Virus record (IMG/VR): IMGVR_UViG_3300002483_000062
Coordinates: 4,323 to 26,317 of that record
DNA: 21,995 bases
Source of the DNA: a virus
Direction: 5' to 3' (one strand)
Under the pieces are notes generated by a model. The model saw nothing but the letters and a program-made list of their open reading frames with translations, made no database searches and was not told the DNA's origin. A program made the position numbers and the translations under genes. Of the stretch, positions 3,619 to 21,204 are shown in pieces; the first letter of the stretch is position 1; each line of letters opens with the position of its first letter.

Positions 3619-3770
3619 TGTTTCAAGATATATTAAAAGAACTTCGTGTAATAACTGATGAATTAAAAGTAACTAATAATTATCTTAGACAAATAGAGGA
3701 AAACCTTAGAGTTCCAAACATGATTGAATGGGCTAAATTTAGAAAAAGTTTGATAAAAAAACCTAGTTAA
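3618..3770 (+). CDS. Small coiled-coil protein
   Basis: 50 residues. I chose the internal ATG at 3618 rather than upstream codons because it lies at promoter distance from a TATA-like sequence and gives a clean protein. The frame upstream would run back through the nuclease start. The sequence begins MFQDILKELRVITDELKV and forms one amphipathic, charged helix with heptad-like Leu/Ile spacing, ending in a basic tail. It probably dimerises; function is unknown. It is one of three plus-strand genes inside the leftward array. Its last 8 bases overlap the 3' end of the tail hub gene. Confidence 0.6.
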   Translation: MFQDILKELRVITDELKVTNNYLRQIEENLRVPNMIEWAKFRKSLIKKPS

Positions 3771-5982
3771 ACTTATCTTTTGTAGTGGTTGATCCTACGC
3801 TGTCCAAAGTATTTTCTGATTGTTTGAGTAGTTCATAATAGTCAAATTCCCATTGTCCTACTTTCATTATTGTTACTGCTTCAGGGTATCTCCACTCTAT
3901 TGCCTTTATTGGTAATTTTGCAGTTGTTCCTGATACTGCATCTCCCTTTTCATCATATAATGTTCTAGTAGTAAAATTATATCTTTTTAATGGGTTTGCG
4001 ATATATATGCCAATTCCTTCTCTTATTCCGTTTAATAAAGTTGGAACTCTAACTGTATAACTTTTTTCTACATCTTTATTTTTTGATATTATTCTTTCAC
4101 CTAACCAATCCAATCCTTTTGAACTTCCTGATAAACTAGTAGTTCTGATTTGTGGCACGTTTAATATTTTTGCAAATACACCATATTGAGATTTAGAAGC
4201 ATTATCTTTCTTTCTTGAAATCATGTTGGCAGGTTCACGATCATATTCAATAATAATTTGATCACTAGATACTAATGCAGTTCCAAAAGTTATTGTTTTG
4301 TTTTCTACATCCATTTTATAATAGTATGTATTGGTAGTAGTGTTATCAGCTGGTATAGGTGTATTTGCATCTGAATCAACCTCAATCATTTGAATATTAT
4401 TTTTAGTAACTCTAGTAGCACCTACAGGTCTATGAGTAAGTGACTTTGTTGTTCCAGTTATATTTGTCCAACTAGTAAGTGGTAGTTCAACAAAATGAGC
4501 AGGTAGGTTAGCACCTATTATTGTAATGTCATTAATCATGCTTACATTGTCTTTTTTATCTGCATCTATGGTAATTCCTTTTTCGCCATGAACAAATTCT
4601 TGACCTGTAAGTATTTTTGCCGGATCTTCTATAATTAGAACCTTGTGTGGATATGTAAAGAAATCAGCATTATTTTGCTCCATTAAATTTAATAATTGAA
4701 TTAATTGTACTAATCTACCTGAAGCAACAAATTTGGCTATAGTTTCACTTGATATACTTAAATCAGTATGAACTCTAAAATCATTATCTGCACTTCTTAC
4801 CATGTCATGTATAATGTTTTCTACTACTTGATTTTGAAAGAAATTTCCCGTTCTTGTGGATAGTTCCCAAGATGCCTGAGAAGAACTCCATATACCACCT
4901 TCAGATGTAGTTCTAGAATCAACATCTGTTTCAAGAAAGAATTTACCTGTTCCTCTAAGATGTAACATTTTATTTTTTAATTTGTCTTCTACTTTCCAAA
5001 CCCTACCCCTTATTTTAGTTGTAAAGAATTGTGGTATTGCATCGAATACTGTATTTGCATCAGTATCACTCAAACAACCGCCTGTATATATTCTAGTTTG
5101 TGCAATTCTACATTTGGCAAACTTGGCAGATGAAGTATAGTCAACACCAAATTTCATTGGTTGTGTGTTGTCAAATGAAGTTGAATTATTACTTGTTGCA
5201 AACTGAGTTAATGGAATTTTTGTTCCTGTTCCAGCAACTTGTAATGATATTACACCTGCGTTTCTTTTAACTCTAACTAATGTCCAAGTTGTAAAACCAC
5301 CATGAACAGCTCCTATAGTTGGATTTGAATATGTTATATCACTAGCAGTTGTTCCATTATTTCTAACTCTTACTATAATATTTCCATCTTGTGAAACCCC
5401 ACTAATAAAACCGCCTATTTTATAAAATATTTCTAATCCATTACCAGATCCACCATTATCCCACTTGCTAAACAAACAACGTTCACTACCAGCAGATTGA
5501 CCAGAAATTTGTTTAAACCAAATAAATATATCAAAATCTCCTGACAAATCTATTACATTAGGTGTTGAACCAGATACAGGTAATGGTGCAGTTACAGGGT
5601 TTGTATATTCTATATAATTACTTGTTCCATTAAAATCTGCTACAAATCTATTTCTAAATTTTATATTATTACCACTACCTTCTTTCTGATAATTTACACT
5701 ACCATTTGTAGCGTGTTCCCATATATCATAACCTGCTTCATCTCTAGCAGTTTGTTGATAATTTGCTATAAAATTTAAATGATCTGCATCTACAATGTCC
5801 TGAATATATTTTAAATCATAATTTTGTTCACTTTGAAAATTACCCGATACAACTATTTCTGCTGTATCTACTGCCCTTCTTCCTTCTCGTTTTACCTTTG
5901 AACTAATAACTGGAACTTTTTGTTGTCTAGTTACCACTCCCGAATTATTTAGTGTATCAATAAATGCCATTACTTTTCCCAT
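3763..5982 (-). CDS. Tail hub/baseplate protein with inserted LamG-like domain
   Basis: 739 residues. The N-terminus (1-110) and the portion after about 320 resemble the large hub proteins at the tail tip (gpD/gp27-type: beta-rich, with the segment NNADFFTYPHKVLIIEDPAK near residue 435). Between them, about 112-315, is a concanavalin/LamG-type jelly roll. It starts VADFNGTSNYIEY, has the FDIFIWFKQ strand typical of such lectin folds, and ends with CRIAQTRIYTGGCLSD. LamG domains bind carbohydrate or protein, so this may be the receptor-binding part. No separate fibre gene follows. A Shine-Dalgarno match 5 bases before the ATG supports this start over Met5. Confidence 0.75.
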   Translation of the reverse strand: MGKVMAFIDTLNNSGVVTRQQKVPVISSKVKREGRRAVDTAEIVVSGNFQSEQNYDLKYIQDIVDADHLNFIANYQQTARDEAGYDIWEHATNGSVNYQKEGSGNNIKFRNRFVADFNGTSNYIEYTNPVTAPLPVSGSTPNVIDLSGDFDIFIWFKQISGQSAGSERCLFSKWDNGGSGNGLEIFYKIGGFISGVSQDGNIIVRVRNNGTTASDITYSNPTIGAVHGGFTTWTLVRVKRNAGVISLQVAGTGTKIPLTQFATSNNSTSFDNTQPMKFGVDYTSSAKFAKCRIAQTRIYTGGCLSDTDANTVFDAIPQFFTTKIRGRVWKVEDKLKNKMLHLRGTGKFFLETDVDSRTTSEGGIWSSSQASWELSTRTGNFFQNQVVENIIHDMVRSADNDFRVHTDLSISSETIAKFVASGRLVQLIQLLNLMEQNNADFFTYPHKVLIIEDPAKILTGQEFVHGEKGITIDADKKDNVSMINDITIIGANLPAHFVELPLTSWTNITGTTKSLTHRPVGATRVTKNNIQMIEVDSDANTPIPADNTTTNTYYYKMDVENKTITFGTALVSSDQIIIEYDREPANMISRKKDNASKSQYGVFAKILNVPQIRTTSLSGSSKGLDWLGERIISKNKDVEKSYTVRVPTLLNGIREGIGIYIANPLKRYNFTTRTLYDEKGDAVSGTTAKLPIKAIEWRYPEAVTIMKVGQWEFDYYELLKQSENTLDSVGSTTTKDKFN

Positions 5983-5987
5983 AATAT

Positions 5988-5994
5988 ATCACCT
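5988..5994 (-). promoter_or_regulatory. Shine-Dalgarno site for the tail hub gene
   Basis: Minus strand AGGTGAT, complementary to the usual archaeal 16S rRNA 3' end, 5 bases before the ATG at 5982. It overlaps the TAG stop of the upstream gene. This gene has no TATA at leaderless distance, so it is an internal operon cistron. Confidence 0.75.
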
Positions 5995-6838
5995 AAGTAG
6001 CTGTGGAAAGAACTCCAACAGGTGTATTAGAATCAGGATCTCTTATTGGATAAAACTTTGACCATGCACCATTACCTTCATTACTATTTGACCTTATTCT
6101 AACTTGAAATTTTGTATTAGAAGTTACAGATCCAGTTGGAGTTGTAAACGGAGATGAAGATTGACTAAATTTCTTATATTCAATTTGACCGCTGGTTGAA
6201 TTTACAAATTCTAAATCATAATTAGTTATTGCATTAGATCCACCTTTATAAACTGGATCTGACCAACTTACAGTAAGTCTTCCTGATCCACCCCCACCTG
6301 AAGGTGTTGTTAAATTAATATTTATAGGCTCATCTGGTACATCAGTATCTAAAGTAGTTATAACATTACCTACAAGAAAACTAAGTTGTGCTGTAAAAGT
6401 AACGGGTGCGGTGCTTGTTTGACTAAATGACATATCAGTAACAAATCCATAAAATATAAGATCTTTACCACCAGAAACTTCACTATAATTTATTTGTAAC
6501 TTAAATTTTTCTTGTAATGAACTACCTTCCAAAGCATCAGATAAATAAACTAATTGTTGTGGTACAGTTTTTATTAAAGTATTAGCATCAGATTGATTAC
6601 CAAAACTCAAATCAGTAGTAGATTCTACAAGTGTCCATGCTAAATTAATTACTTGTGTATTACCTTCCATTTTTACAAGTACGTTTTCACCAGATTTTTC
6701 TTCTGGTAATGGCATTGGACTAATTGGTGTTCTTAAACTAATATTAAATGATTCAAAATTCTTTATTGTATATCCTAGTTGTTCTGAACCTGAATCATCA
6801 GAAGTATCCTTTACTTTGACTAATTTGACAGTAACCAT
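5993..6838 (-). CDS. Distal tail protein with C-terminal FN3 domain
   Basis: 281 residues in two parts. Residues 1-165 are beta-rich (FNISLRTPISPMPLP, then VINLAWTLVES and LIFYGFVTDMSFSQ) and fit a distal tail/baseplate component between tape measure and hub. Residues about 168-265 form a fibronectin type III domain: PININLTTPSG, a Gly-rich turn, RLTVSWSDP, ITNYDLEF and FQVRIRSNSNEG. FN3 domains often decorate virion tails and help surface binding. The ATG shares one base with the tape measure stop (TAATG), so translation is coupled. The exact role is inferred from position and fold pattern. Confidence 0.75.
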   Translation of the reverse strand: MVTVKLVKVKDTSDDSGSEQLGYTIKNFESFNISLRTPISPMPLPEEKSGENVLVKMEGNTQVINLAWTLVESTTDLSFGNQSDANTLIKTVPQQLVYLSDALEGSSLQEKFKLQINYSEVSGGKDLIFYGFVTDMSFSQTSTAPVTFTAQLSFLVGNVITTLDTDVPDEPININLTTPSGGGGSGRLTVSWSDPVYKGGSNAITNYDLEFVNSTSGQIEYKKFSQSSSPFTTPTGSVTSNTKFQVRIRSNSNEGNGAWSKFYPIRDPDSNTPVGVLSTAT

Positions 6839-8049
6839 TATTTGAACGTACTCGCCTGTAGTTGGTTTAAGAAATAATCAGCTGTTGATTTATCAGGAAT
6901 ACTGCCTATATTTACATTTACAGTTGTATTTTTATTATTGTTACCCATGCTTTTAATCCATTCATCTAATCCTCTACCATCTATTCCCCCTGTACTACGC
7001 ATGGCATCACCGACCATATTTTTAAATTCAGGCATACCGGGAACAAGATCTAATAATGGTGCTAATGCAAATGCTAATCCACCGCTACCGCCTCTAGGCT
7101 GTTGAGCAAAATTTCTAAGCAAATTTCCGGGTTGCATTTTTAATGATCCACTTATATTTCTACCTTGTAGTGGTTTAGCACCTGCTGAAGTTCCTGTCCT
7201 AGCTTGAATATTTTGAATCCATTTAGGTGTTGTACTACCGTGACCGCCTAATTTACCTACATTACCCATAGCACCTGTTTTTTTAAATCCTGCTGGGGTT
7301 CCTTGTGTTACTTTTGCAGTTGAACCACCTGTCCAACCGGATCCCGGAAATGGTGCTTTACTAGGAGATGGTTTTGGGTTAAATATATTAACAAAACGAC
7401 TTATAGCAGATTGAAATGAAGTTATCCATGCAGGTTTTGGAAATTTAAATGCTGATCTTATTTGAGTTGATGCCATTTTGCCACCAGCACTAACAAAGTT
7501 AGCCAAAACTGCACCTGCTACTTTTGCACTAGCTACAGTTATTCCAATACCACCAGCTACTGCGGTTGCGATAACTCCAAGAGAAGTTGCCATTCCTACA
7601 ATGCCATCTTCTCCCATTAATTTTGATACGAAATCTCCTATAAATGTTCCAACTTTTGTCATTACTGGCATGGCTGTTGAGTACCACGGTACAATAAACT
7701 TTCTAAGGAACATTACCATTATTGGTCTTAATAGGAAACCTATGAAATCCCCAATAGGTCTAAATATAAGCATAATACTGAAATTAAATAATTTTAACAT
7801 TTGTCTTAGCATTGGTGAAGAATCAACAAGCATACCTGTAAGTTTTTTAGTTAATGCTAATATTCCAACTACACCTGTAGCAATTATTCCCAATTTTGCC
7901 AAATTTTTGCCTAATTCACCGTTACTGCCTGAACCTGAACCACCTGATCCAGTAATTCCCTTACCTGTCAATATACCTGCTAGGCGTTTTTCCAGCTTTC
8001 TTATATCAGTATCGTCAACCTTTACTTTAAGAATATACTGTTCTGCCAT
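6838..8049 (-). CDS. Tail tape measure protein
   Basis: 403 residues, short for a tape measure. It lies directly after the overlapping tail chaperone frames, the canonical position. It has a charged N-terminal helix (5-30), a Gly/Ser linker (31-45), hydrophobic stretches at about 52-66, 86-121 and 151-188, and a low-complexity Gly/Pro/Ser/Thr C-terminal half. The hydrophobic core contains RPIGDFIGFLLRPIMVMFLR, the kind of segment that recurs in tape measures. At roughly 1.5 angstrom per residue (general rule) the tail would be about 60 nm. The start at 8049 has a TATA-like element 28.5 bases upstream. Confidence 0.85.
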   Translation of the reverse strand: MAEQYILKVKVDDTDIRKLEKRLAGILTGKGITGSGGSGSGSNGELGKNLAKLGIIATGVVGILALTKKLTGMLVDSSPMLRQMLKLFNFSIMLIFRPIGDFIGFLLRPIMVMFLRKFIVPWYSTAMPVMTKVGTFIGDFVSKLMGEDGIVGMATSLGVIATAVAGGIGITVASAKVAGAVLANFVSAGGKMASTQIRSAFKFPKPAWITSFQSAISRFVNIFNPKPSPSKAPFPGSGWTGGSTAKVTQGTPAGFKKTGAMGNVGKLGGHGSTTPKWIQNIQARTGTSAGAKPLQGRNISGSLKMQPGNLLRNFAQQPRGGSGGLAFALAPLLDLVPGMPEFKNMVGDAMRSTGGIDGRGLDEWIKSMGNNNKNTTVNVNIGSIPDKSTADYFLNQLQASTFK

Positions 8050-8073
8050 AATAATTTATATATTAGCGGTTGT

Positions 8074-8081
8074 TATTTAAG
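8074..8081 (-). promoter_or_regulatory. TATA-like promoter for the tape measure gene
   Basis: Minus strand CTTAAATA centred 28.5 bases before the ATG at 8049. It includes the TAA stop of the chaperone second frame. Confidence 0.5.
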
Positions 8082-8298
8082 TTTTCCTTGTAGGTATATA
8101 TTGATCTCCCATAGGTATTCCCTGTGGTTTACCAGAGTTTTTCATGTCTTCACTTACAGCTACTAGTAATTTCTTCATATATTCTATTTCTTGGGAGTCG
8201 ACTTTTTCTTTATCCCATCCGAAGTTTGAGGCACAGAATCCGTAGATGCTATATTTATTTCGTTCAATGCTTCCTGACCAAGATACGTTTCCATCCAA
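8077..8298 (-). CDS. Tail assembly chaperone second frame (T-like), reached by -1 frameshift
   Basis: This open frame overlaps the preceding chaperone frame by 115 bases and is offset by -1. It has no ATG near its beginning (the first possible start is TTG at 8298) and no promoter or Shine-Dalgarno of its own, so translation by -1 slippage from the G-like frame is the likely route. The unique part after 8184 reads as a helix (EYMKKLLVAVSEDMKN) and a short tail ending TRKT. The tape measure gene follows 27 bases later. The overall organisation matches the G/GT scheme of lambda-like tails, including known archaeal tailed viruses. Confidence 0.65.
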   Translation of the reverse strand: MDGNVSWSGSIERNKYSIYGFCASNFGWDKEKVDSQEIEYMKKLLVAVSEDMKNSGKPQGIPMGDQYIPTRKT

Positions 8299-8600
8299 TC
8301 CGTCAAATAATCTTGAAAAGGGAATTTTCTTGATACTACCTGAATCAATGGTTTTATGTTATCATAACTCAAACTATTAATGACAGGTTCATTAATATTA
8401 AATGGTGCTTTTACCAATGCTTTTGTAAGCAAACCCATTCTGAATTTTGATAAACTTAATTTTGGTTGCCCTGTTTCTTCATCAACAGTTGCACATTTAT
8501 CCATAAGTGACTCAACATCTCCAAATGATAAATGTTCTTTTATTTCAAATTCAGCATCTTTGCCATCAAATTTTAATTTTATAGTTTCTGTATCTACCAT
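8184..8600 (-). CDS. Tail assembly chaperone, G-like product
   Basis: 138 residues, mostly helical after an N-terminal beta segment (TIKLKFDGKDAEFEI). It sits between tail tube and tape measure, where siphoviruses encode the G/GT chaperone pair that coats the tape measure during tail assembly. A second open frame overlaps its 3' end in the -1 frame, so I expect a minority fusion product of about 174 residues. The C-terminus of the short form is a Lys-rich tail (KKKSTPKK). The ATG at 8600 has a TATA-like sequence 25.5 bases upstream. Sequence similarity to lambda G is not visible; the call rests on position and frame architecture. Confidence 0.75.
   Translation of the reverse strand: MVDTETIKLKFDGKDAEFEIKEHLSFGDVESLMDKCATVDEETGQPKLSLSKFRMGLLTKALVKAPFNINEPVINSLSYDNIKPLIQVVSRKFPFQDYLTDWMETYLGQEALNEINIASTDSVPQTSDGIKKKSTPKK
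8202..8211 (-). other. Candidate -1 ribosomal frameshift site
   Basis: Minus strand AAAGAAAAAG. The zero frame reads AAG AAA AAG (three Lys, residues 131-133 of the G-like product) and the -1 frame reads on as GAA AAA GTC. It lies 18 bases before the zero-frame stop. It is the best A-rich slip site in the overlap but is not a perfect X-XXY-YYZ heptamer, so the exact position is uncertain. Confidence 0.4.
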
Positions 8601-8621
8601 GATACATAGATATTTCTAGGT

Positions 8622-8629
8622 CTATATAT
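8622..8629 (-). promoter_or_regulatory. TATA-like promoter for the tail chaperone gene
   Basis: Minus strand ATATATAG centred 25.5 bases before the ATG at 8600. Confidence 0.55.
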
Positions 8630-8633
8630 GTGT

Positions 8634-9659
8634 TTAGGAACCTTTTGGCTCAGCGTTTGTAGTTGCAGTTTGAGCAACTATTGTTGCATTTTTAATTTGC
8701 CATGATATATCCTCAAATACTGGCTCATTTGGTTCAAGACCTGTTGTAGAATGTGAATCAATACCAATACCATCACAGGTAACTTTAATTGTTTTTAATC
8801 CATTACCTGTTCCTTTATTTGTAAAGAATAATTCTAATTGTGCATGAGATCTAGTATCATTTGTAGTACCTGAATCTGCTTTAATCTGTTCCATTATATT
8901 AACTATAAATGATCTATCTTTTAGTGATACTTGGAATTTACCTGTTATATCAAATAATTGCCTGTAAGCATCAACTGCGAAATGACTATTCATTCCAAAC
9001 AATAGTTCACTATTTTGAGTAAATGTTATATCCATATTTTGAATTTCTGTTTGTGTTGTTAATGAATCACCTGTATTTCCTTTCCATTTAAACAATCCAT
9101 GTGCAAAAGTATATGGGAAATTCATTAAATCAGTTGCACTAGAAGCTGAAAATGTTGCTGTTGGTTGTTGTTCTTTAGCGTATGAAAAATCGGCACTTGC
9201 GTTTACCATGTCGTCAACTGCGGCAGTAATTGATAATGAGTTTAATGCACAACCACTTAATGTTCTAGTTAAGTTAGCAGTTTGACCTTGAAATCCCATT
9301 TGAAGTGTAGCAGTTCTAACTGTACTATCATTTGCAGTTGTAGTATATGTATGGGTAGCGGCAGCTGAACCTGTACTACTTACTGAAGCAGGAGCTCCAA
9401 ATAAAAGCCCTAAAACCCACGGAGAACTTAACACAAAATCTACTGATATTGAACCATTTTGTTTACCATAAGCATAATCAGTTGGTTTTACACTAGCTAA
9501 TTCAGAAAGAGTTTTTTTAGTATTATTTACAGTAAAACTTGTTATTTTTTGTTGTAAGCCAAATTTCTTATAAGATGGACTACTATAGGGAGTTCCAAAT
9601 GCGGAAGCAGGATTATCAAAATCCCATTGTAAAAACGAATTAGCACCTGTTCGAACCAT
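8634..9659 (-). CDS. Major tail tube protein
   Basis: 341 residues from the ATG at 9659. A TTG two codons upstream also opens the frame, but the ATG is the more usual codon. The protein is beta-rich with Ser/Thr-rich loops: GSISVDFVLSSPWVLGLLFG near 70-90, then LSGCALNSLSITAAVDDMVN and ASADFSYAKEQ near 135-165, with a second half of similar strand pattern. That doubled pattern is usual in larger tail tube proteins of archaeal and bacterial siphoviruses. It lies between the tail terminator and the chaperones, the standard place for the tube gene. Polymerised, it would form the tail lumen around the tape measure. Confidence 0.75.
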   Translation of the reverse strand: MVRTGANSFLQWDFDNPASAFGTPYSSPSYKKFGLQQKITSFTVNNTKKTLSELASVKPTDYAYGKQNGSISVDFVLSSPWVLGLLFGAPASVSSTGSAAATHTYTTTANDSTVRTATLQMGFQGQTANLTRTLSGCALNSLSITAAVDDMVNASADFSYAKEQQPTATFSASSATDLMNFPYTFAHGLFKWKGNTGDSLTTQTEIQNMDITFTQNSELLFGMNSHFAVDAYRQLFDITGKFQVSLKDRSFIVNIMEQIKADSGTTNDTRSHAQLELFFTNKGTGNGLKTIKVTCDGIGIDSHSTTGLEPNEPVFEDISWQIKNATIVAQTATTNAEPKGS

Positions 9660-9685
9660 GATCAATCCTTTTTAAAGGCTCTTTG

Positions 9686-9693
9686 TATTTAAA
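9686..9693 (-). promoter_or_regulatory. TATA-like promoter for the tail tube gene
   Basis: Minus strand TTTAAATA centred 30.5 bases before the ATG at 9659. This predicts a leader of about four to five bases rather than a strictly leaderless message. Confidence 0.6.
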
Positions 9694-9699
9694 TATTAT

Positions 9700-10158
9700 C
9701 TAAGGATTTAAATACATGGCATCACAGCTTATTGTATATCTATATAAATTACGATATTCTTCATTAACTGATGTTATACCATTAGGCAATATACGCACAT
9801 ATTCTCTATTATTTACATTTAACAACACGTTTTCTTTTATTATTCTCATGGTTTCATCAACTAATTGTAATACCCGAGCCTCACTTACACTTGTGCGTAT
9901 ATCCAATGTTAATGATACATCATGGAGCCAATCCCAAGTAGGATTACCTGCACTATCAGTATATTGCAAACTGAATATATCAGCACTTTCAGAATCTAAA
10001 CTAACTATGATCTGATCATATACTCTACTACCTACACCTACTGCCTTAATTTCCCATTGTTTGTCTATTTTAGGTTTTACTCCACCGCTTGATTTCCATT
10101 TGTTTCCAAGTAATGAAACAATATCTGTTACAAAATCAAGTCCTGCTATTCCTGCCAT
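9700..10158 (-). CDS. Tail terminator/completion protein
   Basis: 152 residues. After a basic region (WKSSGGVKPKIDKQW) comes an alpha/beta fold: IIVSLDSESADIFSLQ, then VSLTLDIRTSVSEARVLQLVDETMRIIKEN, and a closing strand with NLYRYTISCDAMYLNP. A strand carrying L-I-R-T followed by a helix, with a C-terminal strand, is the usual pattern of tail terminators that cap the tube at the neck. Position between the gp10-like protein and the tube agrees. Its ATG overlaps the upstream stop by one base (TAATG). The specific call is inference from pattern and order. Confidence 0.65.
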   Translation of the reverse strand: MAGIAGLDFVTDIVSLLGNKWKSSGGVKPKIDKQWEIKAVGVGSRVYDQIIVSLDSESADIFSLQYTDSAGNPTWDWLHDVSLTLDIRTSVSEARVLQLVDETMRIIKENVLLNVNNREYVRILPNGITSVNEEYRNLYRYTISCDAMYLNP

Positions 10159-10748
10159 TACTTGTATTTCCTCACTTTTTTATGTATTTTGTTAATTTTC
10201 TTTATTATTCTTCTTTGCATTTTATTTAATTTTTTTAGTTTCTTTATTACTCTATTAAATGCTCTACCTAAAGCTGATTTTTTTACTACAGGTTTTCTTT
10301 TTACAGGGGGGTTATTTGCTGTCATTCTTTTTATTGCTCTTTTAATAAATCTTCTTGGTTTTATTCCTTCTTTCATAATTTTTTTTGCTATTTTAAATGT
10401 AACATTTAGATTTTCATCGTCATCTGTTATTCCTAATTTATGAAATACCCATGCTCTTAAATCATCTATATTTAAATTAATATTATTTCCCGCAGGTGTT
10501 CCATATTCTACAAAACCAGAATAAGGATTATTAGTTACAACGCATTTAAAACCTTCTATTTCTTCAACAGAAAAAGAATCAGATAGTTCACCTGTAAAAT
10601 TTATTTTACCATGAGGATTACCAGATACTTGTCCATCTGCACTTTCTAAACCCCATTGTATTTGTGATAATAAATCATTTGCAATATCATCTGTTAGTCT
10701 ATCCATTTCTGCTTCGTTTACATTGTAAAATGCTCCTAAATTTGCCAT
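10158..10748 (-). CDS. HK97 gp10-like neck/tail-completion protein with basic tail
   Basis: 196 residues. Residues 1-145 have the gp10 family layout: an N-terminal helix, TGELSDSFSVEE, the hallmark NNPYSGFVEYGTP (about 73-85), a helix with LRAWVFHKLG, and IKPRRFIKRAIKRM. Family members join head and tail. Residues 149-196 are an unusual extension: 22 of 48 residues are Lys or Arg with no acidic residue, in an amphipathic pattern (RVIKKLKKLNKMQRRIIKK). It may contact packaged DNA or the portal channel. The ATG is one base after the upstream TGA; a GGTGAT directly abuts it, too close for a normal Shine-Dalgarno, so reinitiation is likely. Confidence 0.8.
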   Translation of the reverse strand: MANLGAFYNVNEAEMDRLTDDIANDLLSQIQWGLESADGQVSGNPHGKINFTGELSDSFSVEEIEGFKCVVTNNPYSGFVEYGTPAGNNINLNIDDLRAWVFHKLGITDDDENLNVTFKIAKKIMKEGIKPRRFIKRAIKRMTANNPPVKRKPVVKKSALGRAFNRVIKKLKKLNKMQRRIIKKINKIHKKVRKYK

Positions 10749-16904: not shown

Positions 16905-17054
16905 TTAATTATTCAATTCTCTTAATATATATAAGACTTTCTCAGGCGATACACCAAGAGATTCAAAATGTTTTACAATATCATAAGCGGTTAAATGAGG
17001 CATATTAGACATATACGATATAACATTTTTTGCTAATTCACTATCTTCGTTCAT
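16905..17054 (-). CDS. 49-residue helical (wHTH-like) protein
   Basis: I read this small gene directly. It starts at an ATGA overlap with the portal stop (ATG 17054, TGA 17051-17053) and ends TAA one base before the next ATG, a tight fit on both sides. The sequence begins MNEDSELAKNVISYMSN, continues with TAYDIVKHFESLGVSPEKV and ends YILRELNN. Three helices with a TAYDIVKHF/VSPEKVLYIL arrangement resemble a small winged-helix or helix-turn-helix core. A regulatory or assembly role is possible but unsupported beyond fold impression. Confidence 0.6.
   Translation of the reverse strand: MNEDSELAKNVISYMSNMPHLTAYDIVKHFESLGVSPEKVLYILRELNN
16927..16934 (-). promoter_or_regulatory. TATA-like sequence before the Cys-rich gene
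   Basis: Minus strand TTATATAT centred 27.5 bases before the ATG at 16903, but inside coding sequence for LYIL of the upstream 49-residue gene. It may be fortuitous. Confidence 0.4.
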
Positions 17055-18925
17055 TCTTCTAAAGTTTTTAGAAACTTATCCCATTGTTTTTTAGTCATAC
17101 CTTTGTTACTTAATGTTGTTCCCGTTCCACTTGCAGGGCTTCCATCACCCGTTCCACCTTCATCACTTGGTCTTGCAATCTTTGGCTCTCCGTCAAATTT
17201 CTGTGCTTCTCCTTCTGCTTTTGGTGCAGATGATTTAGTTTTATCATTATTTCCTTCTCCCTCATTTTGACCTACTCCGCCACCCATCATGGCTTGTTGT
17301 TTTTCAGGATTTGGGAATTGAGATATTACAATATTGTTCTCACCGTCAAATGCTACATCAAAGCCCATTCCATATAATTTAACGGTGTTGTCAATCTTCT
17401 GTCCTCTAACTTGTTCTTCTCTTAGTTCATCAATTTCTTCACTTGTTACTAATTCAATCTTCCAATCATATATTTCCATTATATCAGTAATCTCATTAAA
17501 GAAATTTTCATTCAAGAATCTTTGGAACCATTTGATAGTTCTGTTTGTAAGTGTTACTTGAAGTGCTTCGTTTCCTAAACCTGCTTTAGCCTGTTCACCA
17601 TAGAACAAAGGTTGAACACCATATACAGTTGAGATAATCTGTCTTAATTCTTTTCTAAGATCGCTTAATTCTAACTCTTTAAAGTTTGGTGTAAGGTCAA
17701 TATATTCAAGTGATTGACCTACGTTTTCCGTATTAAGAAGAATTGGTCTTGGCATATATGGATCTTGTCTTGCACCTTGACGTTGTTTTTCCATGAATGA
17801 TTGTACTGATTCAGCATTTCTACTTCCCATTACAAGTAATGATTTTGGTGGTCTATCTTTGTCAAAGTATTTCCACATATATTCATCTTGGAACATAAGT
17901 GATAGAACTTTTTTCCATACTGATTGAATTGGAGAGTTTCCATATAATACATCTGGATAATATTTTCCCGGAATCCAAACTATTTCCTTTTGTGTATAAT
18001 ACATCTTTTTAGGACTACTAAGTGGAATACCGTAAGGAACACTATTGGTTTCTAAGAAAGCATTAAAGCATTTACAACCACATTTAGGACAAACAGGTGT
18101 TTCTAATATTTTATCTCTATGATCATATTGTGGGCATATATATCGTGGTTTACCATCTGCACCGACTCCCAAAGTTGCTTCATCACTTGCAATTATACTG
18201 CATTGAATAGGGTGTATTCTGATAATTTCATCTATCTTACTTTCATTTATACTAGTAATTGCTTCTTTTGTTGCACCTGTTTCTGGATCAGGTGTTTGTA
18301 ATGTCTTTATAGCCCATTGTCTTGACACTAAGATATAACAACCATCTATAATATCTAAATCTCTTTCTGCCTGTCTTGCAACAATTTTAAGAGATTGCTG
18401 GTTGTTATTTACTCGTTTATCTAAAAGTGTTTGTAATACCTGTCTATTTTTTGGATCTGGTTTTGACCATTTACGAGGATTATCATTACCACAAGCACTA
18501 CATTGTAACTTCTCTTTTTTACCTTTATTGGATAATTCATTAATTGGAACATAGTCTTTTAATGGTTTTTGTTCATATTCTTTTAAACAAACAAGACATT
18601 TGTGTTCAAATCTTGGTAATACTTGTAAACCGTTTCTAAACATTTCTCTCTGTATAGTTTCAATAACTGCTCTTAAATCGCCTACATAATCTGCTAATTC
18701 ATACATTCTATTTGGAGCCATACGCCACATTGGAATTTTACTTCCATCAGGTGTATCTAGAAATGGATATGGTGTACTAGATCTAGAATTTGAGTGTAAA
18801 TACTCATCATTTATGGCTTTTCTCATGTCATAATGGTCTTGTGTAACACGATTATAGTCGTCTTTTTCTACCACACGGTAGTTTCTTGGATCTATATTAT
18901 CCCTAATTCTGCCAAAAAAGCCCAT
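17051..18925 (-). CDS. Portal protein with two Cys-cluster insertions
   Basis: 624 residues. Core portal features: the N-terminal region to about 100 (VGDLRAVIETIQREMFRNGL), IVARQAERDLDIIDGCYILV, YYPDVLYGNSPIQSVWKKVL, a stem-type stretch FKELELSDLRKELRQIISTVYGVQPLFYG, and helices rich in Gln/Glu before a low-complexity Gly/Ser/Glu tail (545-600). Two Cys clusters interrupt the usual fold: CLVC (110, 113) with CSAC (142, 145), a zinc ribbon, and Cys264 with CPKCGCKC (279, 282, 284, 286). The portal forms the dodecameric DNA gate at one capsid vertex. The ATG at 18925 has a TATA-like element 26.5 bases upstream. Confidence 0.85.
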   Translation of the reverse strand: MGFFGRIRDNIDPRNYRVVEKDDYNRVTQDHYDMRKAINDEYLHSNSRSSTPYPFLDTPDGSKIPMWRMAPNRMYELADYVGDLRAVIETIQREMFRNGLQVLPRFEHKCLVCLKEYEQKPLKDYVPINELSNKGKKEKLQCSACGNDNPRKWSKPDPKNRQVLQTLLDKRVNNNQQSLKIVARQAERDLDIIDGCYILVSRQWAIKTLQTPDPETGATKEAITSINESKIDEIIRIHPIQCSIIASDEATLGVGADGKPRYICPQYDHRDKILETPVCPKCGCKCFNAFLETNSVPYGIPLSSPKKMYYTQKEIVWIPGKYYPDVLYGNSPIQSVWKKVLSLMFQDEYMWKYFDKDRPPKSLLVMGSRNAESVQSFMEKQRQGARQDPYMPRPILLNTENVGQSLEYIDLTPNFKELELSDLRKELRQIISTVYGVQPLFYGEQAKAGLGNEALQVTLTNRTIKWFQRFLNENFFNEITDIMEIYDWKIELVTSEEIDELREEQVRGQKIDNTVKLYGMGFDVAFDGENNIVISQFPNPEKQQAMMGGGVGQNEGEGNNDKTKSSAPKAEGEAQKFDGEPKIARPSDEGGTGDGSPASGTGTTLSNKGMTKKQWDKFLKTLEE

Positions 18926-19092: not shown

Positions 19093-19100
19093 TTATATAA
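19093..19100 (-). promoter_or_regulatory. TATA-like promoter for the 36-residue zinc ribbon gene
   Basis: TTATATAA, a palindrome, centred 26.5 bases before the ATG at 19070. It contains the TAA stop of the RadA gene. Confidence 0.6.
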
Positions 19101-20124
19101 CAGTTGCTTCTTTTTCTGATTCTTTTTCTGCTTTCTTTGCTTTTGCCTTATCTGCCTTACGTTTCTTTTCTAATTCCTCTGCAACTTCCTGATCAACTAC
19201 ACCTGCTTCACTTAGACCAAACATTACTTCAATTTGACCATGTTTAGGACTATCTACCATTTTACCCATTCTGTATGCACCTGACTTTTTGAAATATACC
19301 CTGTATGTAGACTTGTGTGCAAGAACTGTTCCCCCGATTGCTGTTACAGGATCTCCATAGAAAACTCCGGGATTAATCATTACTTGATTAGTCCATATAA
19401 TTGCTATATTATGAAAGTTAGCCATGTTGGAAGCCATAGTCAAAAACTCATCCATATACTTTTGTCTTTCAGATAGCATACCTCTGCCACTAAAGTCCTG
19501 TCTAAACAAACCTGTTGCACTATCAATTACAATTAATTTTATATCTTTATCTTCAACTAATAGTTTCTCAAGTTCTTGTAAAATTAAATATTGATCTGCT
19601 GAATTATATGCTTTTGCTCTTATTATATTTTCAAGTGTTTCAGTAGCATCTAATTCTAAAGACTCTGCAATAGTTTCTATTCTTGTTGGCTCAAATGTTC
19701 CCTCTGAATCTATCCAAACACATTTTCCATCAAGTCCGCCTTTGTCTTTTGGTAACTGAACTCTTACTGCCATAGTGTGACAGAATTGTGTTTTGCCACA
19801 ACCAAACTCTCCATAGATTTCAGTTGTAGCACCACACTCTATTCCACCTGTAAATAATTTGTCCAATGCTTTTGTGCCAGTTGAAATTTTTTCCAAAACA
19901 TCATCTTCTTTTTTAGCATCTAGACCTGATTGAAATACGGGTGAATCGTCATACTTATCTCTTGCTTTCTTAAATAATTCCATAGCAGAAGTATTATCTA
20001 TACCTAACATTTCTGCAACTTTGGGTGGGGGAATAACAAATAATTGTTCTACTGTAGTAATACCATGCTTTTCAAATTTTTTTGCTGTACCTTCTCCTAT
20101 TCCTTTTAATTTTGTAATGTCCAC
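19093..20124 (-). CDS. radA: RadA-like recombinase
   Basis: 343 residues, close to cellular RadA length. An N-terminal helix-hairpin-helix domain (LKGIGEGTAKKFEKHGITTVEQL, about 6-28) is followed by the RecA core: Walker A GEFGCGKT (105-112), IDSEGTF (138-144), Walker B LIVIDSATG (197-205), and the L2 region with NQVMINPGVFYGDPVTAIGG. RadA forms filaments on single-stranded DNA for strand exchange; in a virus it would serve replication and repair. The linker that normally carries an F-x-x-A polymerisation motif reads VFQSGLDA, with Gly at the Ala position. The C-terminus is a Lys/Glu/Ala-rich tail (KADKAKAKKAEKE). The start is GTG, supported by a TATA-like element 26.5 bases upstream and an in-frame TAA just before. 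Confidence 0.9.
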   Translation of the reverse strand: MDITKLKGIGEGTAKKFEKHGITTVEQLFVIPPPKVAEMLGIDNTSAMELFKKARDKYDDSPVFQSGLDAKKEDDVLEKISTGTKALDKLFTGGIECGATTEIYGEFGCGKTQFCHTMAVRVQLPKDKGGLDGKCVWIDSEGTFEPTRIETIAESLELDATETLENIIRAKAYNSADQYLILQELEKLLVEDKDIKLIVIDSATGLFRQDFSGRGMLSERQKYMDEFLTMASNMANFHNIAIIWTNQVMINPGVFYGDPVTAIGGTVLAHKSTYRVYFKKSGAYRMGKMVDSPKHGQIEVMFGLSEAGVVDQEVAEELEKKRKADKAKAKKAEKESEKEATVI

Positions 20125-20157: not shown

Positions 20158-20370
20158 ATGGCAACTGCTACTGTATATACAATTTCTGATGGAGTAATAG
20201 TTGAACAATTTGATTGTGATTATAATTATGCCATTGGTGCATATCATGGAAAACGAAATATGAAAGGAACTTATTATATTGCAAGGAAAGGTGTTGCTAT
20301 TCCTTTTCCTGAGAAGAATCGACCTCTGAAGAATGTGTTTCATCAGCCGGATCGAGAACAATCTTCCTAA
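20158..20370 (+). CDS. Hypothetical 70-residue protein divergent from RadA
   Basis: 70 residues, not recognised. The N-terminal 45 residues look like a small beta domain (TATVYTISDGVIVEQFDCDYNYAIGAY), followed by a basic segment and a polar tail. The ATG at 20158 is 33 bases from the RadA GTG with interlocked promoters. Its last 74 bases overlap, in antisense, the 3' part of the gene at 20297-20647, so its C-terminal 24 residues are constrained by two genes. Confidence 0.6.
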   Translation: MATATVYTISDGVIVEQFDCDYNYAIGAYHGKRNMKGTYYIARKGVAIPFPEKNRPLKNVFHQPDREQSS

Positions 20371-20647
20371 TCTCAGAAATTAATTCTTCTTTTGTTAATG
20401 ACTCATTTTCAATAATATCCTTAATATCTTCTTGAGATTGTTTAATCACTTTAACTATAACCTGTTGTTTGTGTGTAAGTTCAGTAAACGCATTTGTTGT
20501 TACATATAATGCTCTAGCCAAGTCATGTGATTTCATCTGACCTATTGGCATATCTACAATTACTGCTGATGCACTTTTGATTGAGTTGTAAGGTATTTTT
20601 TTTAAATCTTTTAACTGTTTTTTAATATGCGGGTTGATTATTACCAT
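20297..20647 (-). CDS. Hypothetical helical acidic-tailed protein
   Basis: 116 residues from the ATG at 20647. I reject an in-frame start at 20713 because the added residues are read from the TGATCA repeat and no promoter serves it. A TATA-like element sits 25.5 bases before 20647. The protein is mainly helical (NPHIKKQLKDLKKIPYN, ARALYVTTNAFTELTHKQQVIVKVIKQ, KEELISEIRKIVLD) and ends in an acidic Ser/Glu tail. The function is unknown. It borders the repeat-rich intergenic region, so a DNA-binding role is worth considering, without motif support. Confidence 0.65.
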   Translation of the reverse strand: MVIINPHIKKQLKDLKKIPYNSIKSASAVIVDMPIGQMKSHDLARALYVTTNAFTELTHKQQVIVKVIKQSQEDIKDIIENESLTKEELISEIRKIVLDPADETHSSEVDSSQEKE

Positions 20648-20668: not shown

Positions 20669-20676
20669 GTTATAAA
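20669..20676 (-). promoter_or_regulatory. TATA-like promoter for the gene starting at 20647
   Basis: Minus strand TTTATAAC centred 25.5 bases before the ATG. The triple TGATCA block begins 8 bases further upstream. Confidence 0.6.
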
Positions 20677-20683
20677 GACTCCT

Positions 20684-20703
20684 ATGATCATGATCATGAT
20701 CAT
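20684..20703. repeat. Triple tandem TGATCA palindrome
   Basis: Three contiguous TGATCA hexamers (20685-20702), each self-complementary, making a perfect 20-base palindrome with flanking A and T. Located just upstream of the leftward promoter at 20669-20676. Confidence 0.85.
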
Positions 20704-20783
20704 ATTTTATCACAAAAAGAGAAAAGTATCTACATAAGACTTATATTAGACGAATCGCTTAAAAAATTAATTTAATGAGCTAA

Positions 20784-20806
20784 ATATTTTAAATTTTTTA
20801 AAATAT
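20784..20806. repeat. AT-only inverted repeat
   Basis: ATATTTTAAA (20784-20793) and its exact complement TTTAAAATAT (20797-20806), separated by three T residues. This is the most AT-rich part of the intergenic region and could be an easily melted element. Confidence 0.7.
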
Positions 20807-20813
20807 GACTATA

Positions 20814-20887
20814 TGATCATACTTTATATGAGTATATGATCATAGTTTTTAGGCTCATATTATATAAGTATAGTATGATCATGATCA
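20814..20887. repeat. Further TGATCA copies and a nested inverted repeat
   Basis: TGATCA occurs at 20814-20819, 20837-20842, 20876-20881 and 20882-20887. An inverted pair ATATGAG (20826-20832) and CTCATAT (20854-20860) brackets the second copy. The tandem pair at the right ends 18 bases before the rightward TATA element. Confidence 0.75.
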
Positions 20888-20905
20888 TAGTCGTGATCTA
20901 CAATC

Positions 20906-20913
20906 TTTAAATT
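20906..20913 (+). promoter_or_regulatory. TATA-like promoter for the gene starting at 20935
   Basis: Plus strand TTTAAATT centred 25.5 bases before the ATG. Confidence 0.6.
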
Positions 20914-20934
20914 ATTGTAAATCCTTTATTTTTT

Positions 20935-21204
20935 ATGAAAAAATGGAAGCCGCAGAATTTCAGATTCATAAATCGGGAAGATTCTGACGAAAAGGGAGTA
21001 TGCTATGAAGAATCTAGACAAACATGGGTAACATTACATCATCATATTAGTGAAGATGATTTGATTAATACCTCTGTTGAAGAAAGTCTTCATCAAGCAC
21101 TATCAATGTGTGGATTGAGTACAATATCAAATTTTGAACAGGAAGAATGGTTTGTTGAACAGGTGTTTTGGGTTTTAAATGATTGGGTTATTAACGATTC
21201 ATAA
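20935..21204 (+). CDS. Hypothetical protein with EExxH motif
   Basis: 89 residues. The segment LHHHISEDDLINTSVEESLHQAL is followed by NFEQEEWFVEQVFWVLNDWV. The arrangement (strand, helix with E49-E50-x-x-H53, then a helix with Glu70/71) resembles small zincin-like metallopeptidases of viruses and mobile elements, where HExxH is usual; the first His is Glu here. It may be an inactive relative, or the resemblance may be chance. It is the first rightward gene after the repeat region. Its last 14 bases overlap the 3' end of the next gene on the opposite strand. Confidence 0.65.
   Translation: MKKWKPQNFRFINREDSDEKGVCYEESRQTWVTLHHHISEDDLINTSVEESLHQALSMCGLSTISNFEQEEWFVEQVFWVLNDWVINDS

Follow-up and report, generated by a model that had tools for sequence, protein, structure and literature searches.

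Seven copies of the hexamer TGATCA are packed into a divergent intergenic region of the virus record IMGVR_UViG_3300002483_000062; the tailed virus quite probably has its master divergent operator-promoter array there, bound by a predicted sequence-specific regulator. This reading draws on a clustering of the hexamers beyond chance, a conserved layout and spacing, the proximity of the sites to promoters, their position between two oppositely transcribed arms, and the rewriting of the sites in one close relative (G004, see below). The record comprises 26,317 bases, of which positions 4323-26317 (21,995 nucleotides, referred to as the window in the rest of the text) were analysed. Besides RadA, a portal protein and a large terminase, the window codes for numerous small proteins.

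The TGATCA copies start at 20685, 20691 and 20697 (a perfect triple tandem), at 20814, at 20837, and at 20876 and 20882 (a tandem pair), and all lie within 20685-20887. When the window was shuffled 1,000 times with its dinucleotides preserved, no more than 4 copies ever fell within 204 bp; the intergenic region, shuffled 2,000 times, gave 3 copies at most. The count over the whole window, 14 compared to 9.05 expected (standard deviation 3.08), is unremarkable; the signal is the clustering of TGATCA and not its overall number. The original prediction, made from the letters alone, had described seven TGATCA in a divergent intergenic region, only scattered single copies elsewhere and an AT-only hairpin between the repeats. 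All of this was borne out: the seven positions stand as listed, the other seven copies of the window are scattered singles, and the hairpin lies at 20784-20806. A search of IMG/VR for the triple TGATCA returned 28 stretches, 12 of which belong to relatives of this virus, while the remaining 16 gave no match to RadA or to the flanking proteins.

The hexamers are the cores of longer TATG...CATA palindromes, absent from the original prediction, which we named S1 to S4. S1 (20683..20704) is a 22-bp palindrome, TATGATCATGATCATGATCATA, that contains the triple TGATCA, S2 (20804..20821; TATGACTATATGATCATA) and S3 (20827..20844; TATGAGTATATGATCATA) are 18-bp composite palindromes, and S4 (20874..20889) is a 16-bp palindrome, TATGATCATGATCATA, built around the tandem pair. 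The sites read TATGATCA...TGATCATA, that is, as inverted half-sites of TATGATCA, with the variants TATGACTA and TATGAGTA in S2 and S3. Their lengths vary from 16 to 22 bp, which is unusual for one fixed dimer and counts against the operator reading.

S1 lies beside a leftward TATA-like box, CTTTATAAC (20669..20677, minus strand), at a distance of 5 bp. The centre of this putative promoter element stands approximately 26 bp upstream of the probable start codon (20647), and the resulting transcript would have a short leader or none. To the right, the candidate box TTATATAAG (20860..20868, plus strand), which contains a conserved TATATAA and is present in the aligned relatives, ends 5 bp before S4, so that S4 would separate the TATATAA box from its likely start site. 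A second rightward TATA-like box, TTTAAATTATTG (20906..20917, plus strand), whose function is likewise predicted, follows S4 by 16 bp and precedes the start codon of the right gene by about 25 bp. The earlier statement that the repeats stand just upstream of TATA elements is therefore exact on the left, at S1, and holds only in part on the right, where two candidate boxes flank S4.

The first gene of the leftward arm (20297..20647, minus strand) codes for a 116-aa protein of unknown function that is conserved in relatives. Its product matched no family of Pfam or PHROG above threshold, and its mostly helical model gave no fold match at E<=0.001. The first gene of the rightward arm (20935..21204, plus strand) codes for an 89-aa protein, also of unknown function, conserved in close relatives; a different protein occupies its position in G016, L127 and L134. 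Separately, a 70-aa ORF at window 20158-20370 (plus strand) runs opposite to the strand of the left arm and overlaps the left gene at its 3′ end. Homologues occupy the same place in L127, L130, L131, L132, L134 and the contig L114 from a metagenome-assembled genome (MAG), which makes a genuine gene probable.

Comparison with relatives had been set beforehand as a possible refutation of the prediction. Relatives were collected as contigs with the flanking genes and RadA, and their intergenic regions were aligned; the repeats proved to be conserved, and the reading was not refuted. The four-site layout was found in 11 relatives besides the window's own record, a count that includes the near-duplicates G001/G002 and G012/G013, and it persists even where the left gene has fallen to 54-58% identity. 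S2 and S3 are 23 bp apart in all 11 four-site relatives, the start of S1 keeps the same distance (39) in most, S1 is retained and S4 is exact. In close relatives other than G004, none of the 42 hexamer positions is changed, compared to up to 46 differences at the 260 positions outside. The variants that we encountered were four tandem copies within S1 of G008, a degenerate S3 hexamer in G012-G014, and three differently arranged TGATCA in G015 and G016; the G009 contig covers S1 only.

G004 (IMGVR_UViG_3300044676_005518), a single metagenomic contig, codes for a portal protein 95-99% identical to those of close relatives and for a RadA 97-99% identical to most of theirs. Its four sites read TATGATTATACTTATACTCATA, TATGAGTATATCCACATA, TATGTTATATGCACATA and TATGAGTATACACATA, and TGATCA has been lost from all of them. 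Differences from the window affect 16 of the 42 hexamer positions, 20 of the 260 positions outside (part of these adjoin the sites) and 1 of the 105 positions of the S1-S2 spacer; Fisher tests on these differences assume independent positions. The new sites still form near-palindromes with TATG...CATA ends and are roughly as long as before, and both spacing and layout are kept. Since the DNA between S1 and S2-S4 is nearly identical, the exchange of a single block explains G004 poorly.

The loss of seven hexamers together in one contig might instead stem from restriction-site avoidance or mutation noise, with no bearing on operators. We hold this to be extremely improbable: the remainder of G004 retains 6 TGATCA and 54 GATC in 20 kb, near the background of its relatives, which largely refutes the idea, and the near-palindromic form and similar length of the new sites also speak against it. 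Restriction avoidance was rejected because TGATCA and GATC persist outside the array, and G004 is, as judged from these alignments, a concerted rewriting of the predicted operators in one contig. The same contig bears on a methylation-sensitive switch, in which a Dam-like enzyme of the virus would methylate GATC in the sites and thereby control protein binding. GATC is present in every TGATCA, and G006 and G016 encode proteins that match the Dam family below threshold (E 2.6e-8 and 8.6e-6), besides other adenine methyltransferases. However, these matches fall below NCBI's cutoff and G004 does without GATC at all four of its sites, leaving such a switch very unlikely.

Portal-based scans brought in more distant relatives. 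L127 and L131 carry TGATCA clusters and L130 two copies. In L134 (portal identity 59%) the intergenic region repeats ATGTACTG/CAGTAC, a repetition equalled or exceeded in 0 to 1 of 200 shuffles, and in L114 there is a weak repeat of TACACATA, equalled or exceeded in 4 to 9 of 200. As the motifs of L134 and L114 stand at the same location, it appears that the array can occupy the same place with other site sequences, L134 being the clear case. Operators that differ in concert between close relatives, a mark of temperate-phage immunity regions with switchable specificity, are seen in G004 (one contig). We put forward, tentatively and as something short of an even chance, that the array corresponds, in an archaeal virus, to the immunity region of a phage, with a regulator-operator pair that diversifies among near-identical viruses (TGATCA, G004 and ATGTACTG types). 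If so, the sites would be rewritten in place with layout and spacing kept, and related viruses would not share control.

When ORFs of 70 aa or more were counted, 96-98% of the coding residues of G006 (55.9 kb) and G016 (59.9 kb) pointed away from the array, and G416 (63.2 kb) has the same two oppositely transcribed arms. In these three long records, none of which is certified complete, clustered sites occur at one place per genome. The original prediction had also offered an iteron-type origin, in which the repeats would bind a virus initiator, the AT-rich stretch would unwind and replication would proceed outward from the divergence point, and had named GC skew as a check. In G006 the skew minimum (2469) does lie inside the array, in G016 (46253) it falls within the corresponding intergenic region and in G416 about 1 kb off, and the virus encodes PrimPol-MCM and PolB. 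Yet the minimum, at or near the array, is confounded with gene direction, which switches there: GC skew tracks gene direction, and the few reversed genes show no arm-specific signal. GC skew was consequently rejected as proof of an origin. Moreover, the AT-rich spacer and hairpin are missing in G008 and G011-G014, PrimPol-MCM sits at the far end of its arm, the sites hug promoter boxes, and no replication initiator gene was recognised beside the array. The origin thus found no specific support, and we regard it as unlikely. A single regulator could also govern transcription and initiation together, an arrangement known from some control regions of phages and plasmids. Such a dual role shares the support of the operator and origin readings, including the position at the divergence point, but nothing direct speaks for initiation at the array, and we give it a slim probability.

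Among named phages, only haloarchaeal tailed viruses had portal proteins that matched, with 21-26% identity. Genome contigs, when scanned, yielded one relative, the 8.5-kb contig L114 of a Thaumarchaeota MAG (portal identity 46%), and the viral RadA is 48-51% identical to its best matches among Thaumarchaeota genomes. Together, the match to the MAG contig and the RadA matches in the phylum make a thaumarchaeal host of this tailed virus likely. In 398 genomes of the phylum, a portal search gave one strong match only, on that short MAG contig, and no provirus was found apart from it. No integrase was recognised among the virus genes checked, and a temperate lifestyle, which a true immunity region would call for, gained no support from these searches; a 416-aa protein of G001 was considered and rejected, being without Pfam support. 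That protein, encoded in the rightward arm (G001 24223-26595, L069), has weak ATPase-type PHROG matches and is adjoined by a VWA-domain protein.

Several further features of these genomes were noted. RadA is encoded directly upstream of the portal gene (the pair occupies window 17051-18925 and 19093-20124), a placement retained in all relatives and unusual for a recombinase. Tail-type genes (window ~3763-10748, compared with G006, G004 and G001) exist in two divergent versions, ~30-56% identical, whereas the adjoining capsid and portal genes are >90% identical, a disparity that points to modular exchange. Several DNA methyltransferases are encoded in L066, L067 (G006) and L083 (G016), together with PrimPol-MCM and PolB. 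A GATTCT hexamer repeat ends the G006 contig (55828-55887).

Under the operator reading, a predicted regulator, probably virus-encoded, would bind the four composite palindromes of inverted half-sites, and S1-S4 would touch the promoters of both oppositely transcribed arms. Two cooperating units at S2 and S3 are suggested because the spacing between these sites is fixed. Of the cooperative operator originally proposed, the operator array gained support from the layout, the constant S2-S3 distance, the promoter contact and G004; the cooperativity is suggested by spacing only. Occupied sites would make it harder for the host transcription machinery to be recruited or to escape, and occupancy would thereby set which arm is expressed and when. 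The effects predicted for S1 and S4 follow from archaeal promoter anatomy: a protein on S4, between the TATATAA box and the start, would hinder initiation, and a protein on S1, upstream of the left box, could block or assist. Repression is probably likelier than activation.

As binders, the original prediction had proposed the products of 20297-20647 and 16905-17054 and the zinc microproteins, a suggestion that gained no support, as the flanking gene products and the 49-aa protein are nearly unchanged in G004 despite the switched sites. The flanking proteins are for this reason poor candidates for a change of specificity, and the 20297-20647 product, which also lacks a family and a fold match at E<=0.001, was rejected as the switched regulator. 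Other candidates are a winged-helix-like protein (G006 24769-24996; PHROG 1324, E 8.9e-7) with homologues in G000 and G416, an Arc-like protein (G006 39613-39882; weak match, E 0.007) and a 69-aa protein encoded just outside the window (G000 4064-4273, plus strand), against the direction of its arm. The latter is strongly conserved (MARPxNxNRVxTPISILKSQK...; L088-L113) and looks ribbon-helix-helix-like by eye; this assignment was unconfirmed by a weak model (pLDDT 69.5) that contained helices only and gave no fold match. All three candidates fall outside the coverage of the G004 contig. A contig that comes from the sample of G004, and may or may not belong with it, codes for an ordinary 69-aa protein (L092). 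The regulator is probably encoded by the virus, and a host factor may be the alternative. G004 amounts to a natural swap experiment: a protein co-varying with site type would reveal the regulator, and would also show whether such viruses form immunity-like groups.

A search of a limited open-access literature found no description of such an array for these viruses, and a search for TGATCA in archaeal virus promoters returned nothing relevant. The words 'repressor' and 'promoter' are both absent from the main text of a review of archaeal tailed viruses. In lambda-type divergent operator regions, several similar operators lie between divergent promoters with a spacing suited to cooperation. The present array differs in having no recognised repressor gene beside it, archaeal promoter boxes and variable site lengths. 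A review of archaeal virus transcription factors has Sulfolobus and Acidianus viruses as its scope (PMC5569661). There, F55 of the Sulfolobus spindle-shaped virus SSV1, a small archaeal-virus regulator, occupies repeats arranged in pairs inside or next to early promoters, where they overlap BRE and start sites (PMC5569661). The array resembles these operators in its paired repeat sites within or beside promoters. However, the F55 consensus consists of ATAGATAG-type tandem repeats (PMC5569661), which the sites of the array do not match when tested, whereas the array is made of inverted TATGATCA half-sites and belongs to a tailed virus. AvtR of Acidianus filamentous virus 6 protects ~100 bp between two promoters and was proposed to spread from strong to weaker sites (PMC5569661); its consensus is different, and no AvtR homologue was recognised in this virus. 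In Cluster A mycobacteriophages, the site consensus varies between related viruses together with repressor specificity (PMC6550527). Their operators and stoperators are 13-bp, asymmetric and scattered over the genome, in contrast to the present four sites, which are symmetric and share one locus, and neither a provirus nor an integrase was found here. Compared with these systems, the array is, as far as sequence comparison can tell, known in kind, real and conserved, with one natural concerted site rewriting, and it provides, for tailed viruses whose hosts are probably Thaumarchaeota, a control point that is clearly placed and open to testing.
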